Below are positions 35,501 through 47,500 of a stretch of DNA of 64,000 bases, piece after piece. The notes under the pieces were generated by a model. That model saw only the letters and a list, made by a program, of their open reading frames with translations, searched no databases and had not been told where the DNA came from. Within the stretch, counting starts at the first letter, position 1, and the number at the start of each line of letters is the position of its first letter. The translations under genes were made by a program, and so were the position numbers. Source of the DNA: Nymphaea colorata (lineage: Eukaryota > Streptophyta > Magnoliopsida > Nymphaeales > Nymphaeaceae). The stretch covers positions 1,337,503 through 1,401,502 of the forward strand of contig NC_045143.1 in assembly GCF_008831285.2 (NCBI RefSeq), given 5' to 3'.

Positions 35501-36602
35501 TTGAAGTTAATACTATATACCATGATTCCTCTCTGGCAGGAAGGAGTGGCACATCTGCATTTCTTACATGGGATATCAGACTTAAGATCGCGCTGAGGGT
35601 TGCCACAGGTCCTAGTTCTCCATTATTTCCATTGCAGAGCTCTTTGTCTCATCAATTCTTTAGGGTTAATGAGCCTTTTGAATTTCTGGCAGAAACTGAC
35701 CATATGTTTCTCGAGTGCAGGATTAGACTATTTACACTCGGGCTGTTATCCGCCTATCATTCACAGGGATGTGAAAACATCAAATATTCTTCTTAATGCA
35801 AAGATGGAAGCCAAAGTAGCAGATTTTGGACTGTCCAAAGCTGGCCAAAAAGAGGAAGGGGCGGATCAACCAATTGTAGTCGTCAACCCAAGCCAATATA
35901 GTTTTGACCAAAGGGACGATGTGACTCAGGTTTCAACTGCAGTTGCCGGCACACCCGGATATATTGATCCCGAGTACGTTTTTTTTTTCTTATATGCGAA
36001 CATGAATCAGTTCATCCCCCGACATGGTTATCTCTCTGAACAGAGCTCAAATACAATACTATTGTTGGAGGGAGAAACTAATGTTTGGAAGCCAAAGGAA
36101 TGAAAGATGGAATCCCCTTCATTGCAAAAAGAGAGAAAAAGTTTCCTAATAAGAAAGTTTCTGTGCTTGCAGGTACTACAGTACGAACCGGGTCACCAAG
36201 AAGAGCGACGTCTATAGCTTTGGTGTGGTTCTATTGGAGCTCATAACTGGACGTCCTCCAATGTTTGCCGCGTCTGGAGAGCGTTTTCATATTATTGGAT
36301 GGGTCACACCAATAATAGCTAGACGGGAAATCCACAGTATTGCGGATCCTAAACTGAATGGGCAATATAATGTAAACTCCATGTGGAAAGTTGCTGATGT
36401 AGCACTGTCGTGCACCTCCGAAACAGCTGATGCGAGGCCTCGCATGATCGATGTGGTGAACCAACTGAAGAAGGCCCTCGAGGAAGAGACTTGTTATCAA
36501 CAGCGGACCGATACCCCATCTTCAGAGGTTCGAAGTTCACCAACCTTTTATGAATTTTCTAGCTCATCTCTCTCTAATTCGCAGCTATCATCAGCCAGAT
36601 AG
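26540..36602 (+). CDS. RLK-C: malectin-like LRR receptor kinase, complete, distant first exon
   Basis: Exons: 26540-26609, 30477-31011, 31638-32116, 32200-32332, 33444-33512, 33597-33668, 33835-33909, 33987-34156, 34608-34819, 34900-35026, 35540-35608, 35721-35973, 36173-36602; 897 residues with no stop. Signal peptide 1-23 (starts MANSIRALL), malectin-like domain about 25-355, GDPC 380-383, LRRs about 406-477, one transmembrane helix in exon 8, kinase about 560-850 with [17 protein letters not shown] (685-689) and DFG (705-707). Between DFG and [10 protein letters not shown] it has 21 extra residues (715-735), shared with D but absent from A, B and E. Intron 1 is 3.87 kb; no nearer first exon was found, and its right part matches intron 1 of RLK-F. 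The linkage of exon 1 to exon 2 is an inference. AATAAA at 36693 follows the stop. Confidence 0.88.
27263..27430 (+). repeat. Four tandem copies of a 42-bp repeat
   Basis: Units at 27263-27304, 27305-27346, 27347-27388 and 27389-27430. Because 42 is divisible by three, the + frame reads [14 protein letters not shown] four times and a minus frame is open too. The duplicate (39563-39710) also has four units, two of them shortened internally. It lies in intron 1 of RLK-C and I regard it as non-coding. Confidence 0.93.
28901..29300 (+). pseudogene. SHG1-like gene, 3'-UTR fragment
   Basis: From AGTAGAAGATGG onward the sequence follows 24990-25140 of the SHG1-like gene, sharing AACTGTTGACGG-like, GGTGCTTAGTTGTAGC-like and TCTAGCATCCATG-like blocks, then fades by about 29300. 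No coding part is retained. It lies inside intron 1 of RLK-C, between the duplicated segment and intron sequence shared with RLK-F. Confidence 0.7.
29301..30476. other. Right part of RLK-C intron 1, shared with RLK-F and RLK-D introns
   Basis: About 29700-29850 matches 61740-61880 in intron 1 of RLK-F, and about 30125-30476 matches 41745-42099 in intron 1 of RLK-D. This ties the region to its own RLK gene rather than to the neighbouring duplicated unit. Confidence 0.7.
29625..29704. repeat. (TA)n microsatellite, about 80 bp
   Basis: Near-pure TA dinucleotide tract with one TGTG interruption. Length may be unreliable in assemblies. Confidence 0.95.
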
Positions 36603-37122
36603 TCTTCCACCAAAAAATGTCCCGCATTGTAAGAGGATTCAGCAGGCAAACAGGTCTCCTTGTTGTTTATATGATGGAACTCGTTTTTGTGTAATAAACG
36701 ATTATTTCTTGCTTCTGTTTCCACGAACATGCTCAAAAGTGACTGAGCAATGAACATTTTGGTTGCATGAGGCATGCAATAATAGTACACAGTACTCTTT
36801 CTTCTCTTCTTTTATGTCCTCCTCTGTCATGTGAAAAATCCTTTCTTAATTGGATAGAATTAGGCCTTTATTTAGATGAGAGAGAGAGAGAGAGACATAG
36901 GAAAACCGTAAATGGTGTGTACCTCTAATCTTCACTCAACCTCGTGCCTTCCACTTTCACTACAAAACACCATTTAACTGTGACCAAGGGTCAGAATGAG
37001 AAGAAAGGAAAACGTGTTTTGGGTGACCGTCAAGATTGGGTTTGTGAAAAACCCAGTTTCGACAAGCATTGATAGGTCATGTGTTGCCCAAACACAAAAA
37101 TCCAAGTTTCAAAAACCAACGA
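36603..37122. other. 3' UTR and spacer after RLK-C
   Basis: The first 180 bp match the 3' UTR of RLK-D, including AATAAACG. A short GA tract lies at 36881-36896. About 37010-37120 has GGGTTT and AAACCC motifs like those at 38150-38250. No gene seen. Confidence 0.65.
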
Positions 37123-44500: not shown

Positions 44501-47500
44501 TAAGCATCAAAATTTATTCGTTTTGAATGTTAGATTAATTAACTAAAAAACGAGTAGTTTGGGGGTGGGTAAAATTAGATCCTCGGTTGTCCTCAGACCT
44601 GGATTCAATTTGGTCACAGACCTATACACTGAAGCTGATCAATCATCAAGATTGCTATTTCGATCTCCTTTTTACTGGATACGACTGAATAATTCTGGAC
44701 TTGGATCAGTTTCGAAATAATACTGATCCAATATTGGCACGCCTCATCGCAATCTCAAACCAATCTGACTGGTCCTGTATTTCGTTCTGATCATATTCCT
44801 TTCCCAGGTTTTTGAGTGGTTATGGACTCACCGGCCCCCTTGCGGACTTCAGCAACCTGACTGCTCTTCAAATAATGTAAGTGATCACTTCTAGGGCCTT
44901 CTTTAGGGATGTCCTTCGTATATATGAAGTTGGTAATTATTTTTTATCTTGTTTGACAGTGACTTGCATAACAACAGCTTGAGTGGAAGCATTCACGAAT
45001 TCCTTGGGAAACTTCCCAATCTGAAGCGGTTGTAAGTACAGAGCAGCCCTATATTTCACGAAGTTATAGCTAGCTCTCCCTCTAAGATGTTTGTTTCCAA
45101 ATTTTTTGCAACTATTACAAGAGCTAAGGACTTAATTTGAACCTTACTCACCTGGTTTCAAATTTCAGCTGCTCACATGTGTATAATATACTGCAGAAAC
45201 TTGGCAGACAATCAATTTAATGGATCACTGCCGGCATCACTTATAACTAGCAATTCAATAGTGAACCTAAAGTACGCGATCATCTGATTCATTTCTTTTC
45301 AGTCTTTTGTCAGTGCCCCAGGTGACCTTCCAAATTTTCCGCTTGTAGCATTTCGGGCAACAATTTCTCAGGCAACTCAAGTGACTTTGCCGGCAGCGCA
45401 GAGAAGAAGGGCAATGTGGGTGTAATAGCTGGAGGAACCATTGGTTCGACCTTGTTCTTGTTGCTGTTGGTCATGCTTGCCATCTTCATTTTCAAGAAGC
45501 GGCCTGCCAATGCATCTGGTATAAGGCTTAGCTTGTCTTTTCCTCTCACTTTTCTAAAATTTCAGAAGATTGGATCTTATGTGTCTCCAAAAATCGGGTC
45601 GGAATATTGGATTTAAAATCATCGATCGCATTAAATTTTCAAGATATTATTGCCATCGAAACATCATGTGGATTTGGACAAGTTTTGGAGTTGCTCATAG
45701 CTTAAGTAACCAGATCCACAATTTCTCCTAGATCAGGTCGATCATGGGTGGCCTAAATGCCTAATAGGATCTCATGTTCCCGTGCTAAGTTTAACTCAAG
45801 AGCACGCAAATCGCACCTCCCCTGTTGGAATAAAAAAAACATTTCATGGGCATGTTTTAGATGTTGGACTTTTATTTATACACTAATCACTAACTCTATC
45901 AAAATTAATGTGCTAGCCAAGCCAAGGTCGGCTCTTCTAGAACCGGAGATCAAGCAGCATGGCTTCTCTCATGCTGAGATTGTGGAAATCACCAACAATT
46001 TTGAGAAAGTCCTTGGTGAAGGGGGATCTGGAAATGTCTACTATGGTCGACTTAGAAATGGGTCCGAAGTTGCTGTCAAGGTGCTAAAAGATACACTCTC
46101 ACAAGGAACCAAGGAGTTCGTAGCAGAGGTTTGTCTTCTTTTAAGTTATTAGACTCTCAGTTTATAATATACGTGTTCAACGACTATGAATTGTTTGCTA
46201 TCATTTTAGGCGAAGCTATTGATGACAGTTCACCACAGATTCTTAGTCTCCTTTGTTGGGTACTGTGAGGAAGGTGGAAATCTGATTCTTCTCTATGAAT
46301 ACATGGGTGGTGGGAATCTAAGGCAGCTGCTCTCAGGTAGGTCACATGGGCAACTAGTCCTATATATAACTATTCCAAATATTGGTGGCCCAATGATGTG
46401 GAGATACCATATCGTTATTGGATTTTAAAGGGGGTCATGAACTGCTTCATACCCATCTGTAAGCGTGATCAGTGACAATAATATGAGTAGGTCCTGCAAA
46501 AAGAAGTGACTGTTGTTAAGGAGTTTGCTGTTTCCATTAGCCAACAAGAAGTCAAGCCACCTTAACGGAGGGATTGACTTAAGACTCTTAAAATTAAGGA
46601 GGTCAAGTACGTAATGCTTGATTTTGCCTTTTTGGTTTTGGTAACCCCAGCTTGCCTTTGGAAAGAACAAAAAAAGAAAAAAAGAAAAAAAGAAAAAAGC
46701 ATTATTTTGATCAGTTTGATGAGAACATGATCAGAATAAAAATAACTTCAACCTAATAAGTGATTGAAGTTAACACTATATACCATGTTTTCTCTCTGGC
46801 AGGAAGGAGTAGCACATCTGCATTTATTACATGGGAGATCAGACTGAAGATCGCGCTGAGGGTTGCGACAGGTCCTAGTTCTCCATTATTTCCTCTGCAG
46901 ATCTCTCTTGTCTCATCAATTCCTTGGGGTTAATGGTCCTTTTTACAGAAACTGACCATATGTTTCTTGAGTGCAGGATTAGACTATTTACACTCGGGCT
47001 GTTATCCGCCTATCATTCATAGGGATGTGAAAACAACAAATATTCTTCTGAATGCAAAGATGGAAGCCAAAGTAGCAGATTTTGGACTGTCCAAATCTGG
47101 CCAAAAAGAGGAGGGGGCGGATCTACCAACTGTAGCCGTCAACCCACGCCGATATAGTTTTGGCCAACGGGACGATGTGACTCAGGTTTCCACTGCCGTT
47201 GCTGGCACACCCGGATATATTGATCCTGAGTACGTTTTTTCTTATATGCGAACATGAATCAGTTCATTCCATGTCAAAACAGAGTTCAAAATACAAAATT
47301 AATGTTCGAGGGAGAAACTAGTGTTTGGAAGCCAAAGGAATCAAAGATGGAATCCCTTTCATTGCAAAAAGGGAGAAAAAGTTTCACAATAATAAAGTTT
47401 GTGTGCTTGCAGGTACTACAGAACGAACCGGGTCACCCAGAAGAGCGACGTCTATAGCTTCGGTGTGGTTCTATTGGAGCTTATAACTGGACGTCCTCCA

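Follow-up and report, generated by a model that had tools for sequence, protein, structure and literature searches.

The DNA analysed here is a 64,000-nucleotide stretch of Nymphaea colorata contig NC_045143.1 (G000:C6:1337503-1401502; hereafter the window), which carries the receptor kinase genes RLK-A to RLK-E of an array; a further member, RLK-F, lies just outside it. In RLK-C, the kinase matches Pfam PK_Tyr_Ser-Thr (PF07714, E 3.9e-44), a scan of two joined exons returned a Malectin_like ectodomain (PF12819, E 4.2e-73), and three short leucine-rich repeat (LRR)-like exons translate. The array genes are read as LRR-malectin receptor kinases, probably of LRR-RLK subfamily I. In PMC5179525, this subfamily is described as malectin-like, with few (about three) LRRs before the transmembrane region, and as including the defence kinase FRK. 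RLK-C resembles it in its Malectin_like ectodomain, putatively few LRRs and RD kinase; the difference is in the activation segment, which is longer by 21 residues in RLK-C and RLK-D and by 29 in RLK-F.

Exon 12 of both RLK-C and RLK-D contains 63 extra in-frame bases in the interval from DFG to GTPGY. The sequence and tblastn place them where the initial annotation of this DNA had put them, and its exon number agrees with the modelled exons (exon 1 lies outside the model). In RLK-A, RLK-B and RLK-E, exon 12 reads straight from GSR, GSK or GQK into D(D/E)V, as had been claimed. The acceptor (cag/GATTAG) and donor (TCCCGA/gtacgt) of RLK-C exon 12 are canonical, as are the splice sites of RLK-D, and the insert is therefore mid-exon in both genes. 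Because both of its edges read GQ(K/R)-acidic-acidic, the alignment gap can be shifted by a few bases; Table 1 gives both the annotated placement and that in the register of the repeat described below. The insert does add Ser and Tyr, namely two Ser and one Tyr in RLK-C and one Ser, one Tyr and one Thr in RLK-D. The exon translations of both genes keep AVK, HRD, DFG and GTPGYIDPE.

Table 1. Coordinates of exon 12, the insert and the repeat units (window positions unless stated otherwise).
Feature	Position	Strand	Remarks
RLK-A exon 12	starts 3481	+	
RLK-A activation-segment unit	3604..3666	+	single unit, no insert
RLK-B exon 12	starts 16992	+	
RLK-B activation-segment unit	17115..17177	+	single unit, no insert
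RLK-C kinase exons	34608..36602	+	34608-34819, 34900-35026, 35540-35608, 35721-35973, 36173-36602
RLK-C exon 12	35721..35973	+	HRD, DFG, activation segment, insert; canonical splice sites, open frame
RLK-C insert, annotated placement	35852..35914	+	63 bp; sequence, tblastn
RLK-C repeat copy 1	35843..35905	+	decayed; repeat-register placement of the extra unit; 35-37/63 to A/B/E units and own copy 2
RLK-C repeat copy 2	35906..35968	+	canonical; in-register comparison
RLK-D kinase exons	45917..47842	+	45917-46128, 46210-46336, 46803-46871, 46977-47229, 47413-47842
RLK-D exon 12	46977..47229	+	with insert; canonical splice sites like RLK-C
RLK-D insert, annotated placement	47108..47170	+	63 bp; sequence, tblastn
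RLK-D repeat copy 1	47099..47161	+	decayed; repeat-register placement of the extra unit; in-register match to A/B/E and G/H units
RLK-D repeat copy 2	47162..47224	+	canonical; in-register comparison
RLK-E exon 12	starts 57326	+	
RLK-E activation-segment unit	57449..57511	+	single unit, no insert
RLK-F exon 12	starts C6:1404827 (L009:3428-3709)		outside the window; open frame

The source of the insert, on which the initial annotation was silent, is the activation segment itself: the unit GQK..GTPGYID is repeated in tandem, and the insert is the decayed one of the two copies, still in register. Taken with its GQK, it forms a 63-base copy (copy 1) of the 63 bases that follow (copy 2), in register. 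Copy 1 of RLK-D shares 38, 39 and 38 of its 63 bases with the A, B and E units and 35 with its own copy 2, and the corresponding values for copy 1 of RLK-C are 35, 37, 35 and 35. Against a null of the 127,123 other 63-mers of the window on both strands, RLK-D copy 1 gave a mean of 15.5 matches (standard deviation 3.5, maximum 32), and the maximum for RLK-C copy 1 was 33. When the 18 codons other than GQK were shuffled 100,000 times, the observed identity was never attained. Among 23 genome units compared, the top matches for RLK-D copy 1 were those of array genes G and H (43/63 each). At five of the six positions where copy 1 differs between RLK-C and RLK-D, one allele carries the base common to the five source copies compared (RLK-D at four, RLK-C at one). 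The lead to this source was a 15-base BLAST match of the RLK-D insert to exon 12 of RLK-B (17137-17151, E 0.64); as for another source in the window, the short BLAST matches outside RLK-C and RLK-D were individually at chance level (best E 0.16). A point against this origin is that RLK-C copy 1 matches RLK-D copy 2 at only 32/63 positions, a value that 2 of the 127,123 null 63-mers reach. The repeat at the edges of the insert (GQKEE/GQRDD, 11/16 bases, about 1% by chance) had suggested a transposon with a target-site duplication, a reading we dropped because the in-register match over all 63 bases explains the edge repeat better. Significant in-register similarity to the adjacent sequence, together with single units in RLK-A, RLK-B, RLK-E and RLK-G to RLK-L, is what an internal tandem duplication leaves. 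We consider it likely that such an in-frame duplication of the activation segment took place in the ancestor of the paralogues RLK-C, RLK-D and probably RLK-F.

RLK-F, whose exon 12 the initial annotation had suggested checking for the insert, does have a related insert, of 29 residues. It contains an 87-bp in-frame repeat, with GQKDDVTPPSTAVASTPGCIDTEYLYSSY as the first copy, and the two copies are identical at 67 of 87 positions. This repeat extends beyond the exon end, and about 15 intron-like bases, corresponding to the start of intron 12, lie inside the open frame in copy 1. The last 24 bases of copy 1 (the exon end plus these bases) match the exon end and intron of RLK-F itself and of RLK-E at 16/24 each, and the intron-like bases alone match the introns of RLK-F and RLK-E at 10/15 and 9/15, respectively. 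Against an intron origin, the match to the introns of RLK-A, RLK-B, RLK-C and RLK-D is only 5-7/15, which is within chance under a null that took in the family units themselves. On a donor matrix built from 36 donors of genes A-E (their scores 3.32-10.9 bits), the copy 1 donor of RLK-F scores 0.13 bits, under all 36, and the copy 2 donor 8.98 bits. The first-copy splice donor of RLK-F is thus ruined, and splicing is predicted to occur at the second. In the open exon 12 of RLK-F, moreover, HRD reads DRD and DPE reads DPG, so that its kinase may be weak or inactive, possibly a pseudokinase.

The three inserts could descend from one event or two, and we lean towards a single duplication shared by RLK-C, RLK-D and RLK-F. 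Copy 2 has a common start in all three genes (T/GGCCAA; T/GACCAA in RLK-C), preceded by similar bases (AGTTTT vs AGTTAT), and the tree of the kinase exons joins C, D and F with a support of 89 on all exons and 62 on exons 9-12. Several observations weigh against a single event. The grouping of C, D and F reaches only 62 on the exons before exon 13, and exon 13 puts RLK-F with RLK-E (64); as the exon trees disagree in this way, the genes may be mosaics, with gene conversion a possibility. The tree of the 63-base units leaves F copy 1 apart from C1 and D1; this tree has weak supports, misplaces two outgroup genes (L024 and L027) and is poor evidence either way. F copy 1 shares bases with the second copies rather than with C1 and D1, and a single event therefore needs later homogenisation in RLK-F, or else a second event took place. 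Moreover, allowing the 24-bp gap that a single event implies for C1 and D1 gains only two matches to F1 (from 40 to 42 for D and from 38 to 40 for C), with three gained against E and against F2 and no gain for A or B. Alternatively, the site may have been duplicated twice and independently: first over 63 bp, purely exonic, in the ancestor of C and D, and more recently over 87 bp in F. Two events would leave the ungapped 63-base match of C1 and D1 to the exon units without need of a deletion, and would fit both the separation of F1 in the unit tree and its greater similarity to F2 (51/63) than to D1 (40/63). They would make a coincidence of the common copy 2 start with its similar preceding bases, and RLK-C, RLK-D and RLK-F stand together on the whole kinase (89). 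We regard two events as the less probable history, tentatively to be kept in mind.

Under the preferred history, the duplicated unit would have been GQK..GTPGYID, in RLK-F together with DPEY and the start of intron 12. The downstream copy would have retained the working sequence, i.e. the phosphosite region, the P+1 loop and GTPGYIDPE, and the upstream copy would have decayed, for example from AGTPGYID to VNPRRYSF, to become a lengthened and probably flexible loop or bulge that separates the DFG strand from the phosphosite region. In RLK-F, the duplication would have crossed the 5′ splice site; with the first donor ruined and the second presumably used, about 15 former intron bases would now be coding. 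RLK-C and RLK-D would either have later lost 24 bp including the intron-derived region or have originated in a shorter 63-bp event. RLK-F points to a way in which intron can become protein, by a duplication that spans a splice donor. It is possible, although doubtful, that a duplication over the exon-12 donor at first left a second activation segment silent within the intron, that this segment came into use once the first donor was lost, and that the old loop was freed as a new control element ahead of a fully working second loop. A likeness is found in potato RdRp, where, according to PMC4974935, a tandem duplication over an exon-intron boundary gave rise to an intron. As proposed for RLK-F, a tandem duplication spanning a splice site there alters splice-site use. 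The direction differs, as an exonic piece became intron in potato and a piece of intron appears to have become exon in RLK-F.

The initial annotation had suggested that the insert is tolerated or used. Between RLK-C and RLK-D, the insert has a nonsynonymous divergence (dN) of 0.135 and a synonymous divergence (dS) of 0.152, giving dN/dS 0.89 (six nonsynonymous and two synonymous changes), compared with dN 0.014, dS 0.146 and dN/dS 0.09 in the rest of exon 12 and dN 0.039 and dS 0.111 in the rest of the transmembrane region plus kinase. The introns between the modelled exons differ at 105 of 1539 positions (6.8%). Nonsynonymous changes are concentrated in the insert relative to the rest of exon 12 (Fisher, P 0.003) and to the rest of the transmembrane region plus kinase (P 0.012). 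Since the split of C and D, the insert has thus changed about as fast as unconstrained sequence, in few changes, with exon 12 around it constrained. Against its neutrality, the estimate rests on eight differences, and the ratio of nonsynonymous to synonymous differences does not depart significantly from that in the rest of the kinase (P 0.45). The likeliest reading is that the lengthened loop is tolerated, in kinases with their catalytic motifs still present. As copy 2 keeps the Ser/Thr of the phosphosite region and GTPGYIDPE, these kinases should switch like their relatives, and we infer a flexible, tolerated loop in a kinase that is still active.

Use of the insert as a regulatory element, with the new Ser, Tyr, Thr or charged residues forming a phosphosite or docking site that alters activation or substrate access, appears unlikely. 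The insert stays in frame in both genes, and a precedent exists in the D-group MAP kinases of Arabidopsis, in which, according to PMC12817480, a functional activation-loop insertion docks PP1. These share with the present genes the extra activation-loop residues in a plant kinase, but there the insertion is described as a PP1 docking motif of the group and here it is a decayed loop copy in three paralogues. Furthermore, a functional insertion would be conserved by selection, and the change between C and D is near neutral; the Thr kept by RLK-D is lost in RLK-C; and the 21-residue insert, a very short query, has no match in Pfam, nor has a 31-residue query around it in the PDB at E up to 10. 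Of the two halves of the earlier claim, therefore, tolerance stands with the open frame, the kept catalytic motifs and the near-neutral change, and use finds no support.

An insert that is spliced out of the mRNA, or genes that are not expressed, would have no effect on the protein, a reading we hold to be very unlikely. A scan for in-frame GT/GC..AG pairs sparing DFG and GTPGY found three in RLK-C that cover the insert (35833-35913, 35840-35929 and 35844-35942), but their donors are poor and they also take flanking residues, and RLK-D has no in-frame pair covering the whole insert. Two in-frame pairs common to both genes remove part of it (35876-35929/47132-47185, 54 bp; 35861-35929/47117-47185, 69 bp, with a GC donor), but these would delete DDVTQ of the working copy. 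Splicing out, and with it a retained intron, was judged unlikely on these grounds. The strong constraint on exon 12 outside the insert is also what is expected of a translated exon.

The breadth of the insert was surveyed in the N. colorata genome (783 contigs, 407.8 Mb), where the search gave at least 163 matches. From the matches listed we took 30 loci and 60 further places (each listed match as far as about E 4e-11 and a choice of the weaker ones). With 8 loci from another search, these gave 98 unique HRD/DFG sites, with one broken fragment on C11 counted twice; 80 were readable from DFG to G(Y/H/F)..P. We took as subfamily-I-like the sites whose HRD stretch shares 70% identity or more with that of RLK-E (72 sites, of which 59 readable and 13 unreadable or with a stop). 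Among the 59 readable exons 12, only RLK-C (42 residues), RLK-D (42) and RLK-F (50) exceed 23 loop residues, and the other 56 have 18-23; the same insert in most subfamily I kinases, which the initial annotation had named as grounds for rejection, is thus not what this genome holds. Within the array, 3 of 12 genes carry an insert.

An ancestral insert lost in RLK-A, RLK-B and RLK-E would agree with the fact that tandem copies can be lost through slippage, but the 56 short loops among the readable exons of this genome make it extremely improbable, as do the solved structures. The closest solved relatives of the RLK-D kinase by sequence are the kinase domains of SYMRK and FERONIA (PDB 8peh, 6m0u and 7xdv; best 60 of 89 matched sequences), and the five alignments viewed break at the insert, which has no counterpart residues there.

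Among other receptor kinases, a likeness is found in the internal tandem duplications of FLT3 in leukaemia, which are also in-frame. Those are somatic and lie in the juxtamembrane region or N-lobe, whereas the duplication here is in the genome sequence, is old and lies in the activation segment. Among the titles and abstract openings listed in literature searches, none named an activation-loop insertion or duplication for plant receptor kinases. In a protein kinase, no switch is under tighter constraint than the activation segment, and survivors of its duplication, with one copy decayed and one intact, offer a natural experiment on how much additional loop a receptor kinase can bear.

The array occupies G000:C6:1340983-1479468, with 12 genes that have exon 12 and one fragment with a stop (1417170). 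A 2.2-kb direct repeat between array genes (window 26278-28500 and 38566-40779) is 93% identical. The 13 sites of the survey that were unreadable or had a stop include fragments on C8 and C11 that bear the start of a D-like insert. The C8 fragment (L043:4121-4792, 91% to RLK-D) consists of an intron and exons 11-12, and the C11 fragment (L042:5001-5174, 93% to RLK-D) is a broken part of exon 12. Both depart from the RLK-D sequence inside the insert and are 96% identical to each other over about 1.1 kb, and they look like a gene piece moved by a mobile element. Dispersed truncated copies of exon 12 on C9, C5 and C14 (L066, L067 and L069), ending in ...AKVTDFAGTT.. and 89% identical to RLK-E in the HRD stretch, are apparently another spread gene fragment. 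Finally, a more distant kinase (L101:850, HRD stretch 52.5% identical) has a 33-residue loop from DFG to GTPGY that is rich in Gly, Ser and Ala and unrelated to the insert.

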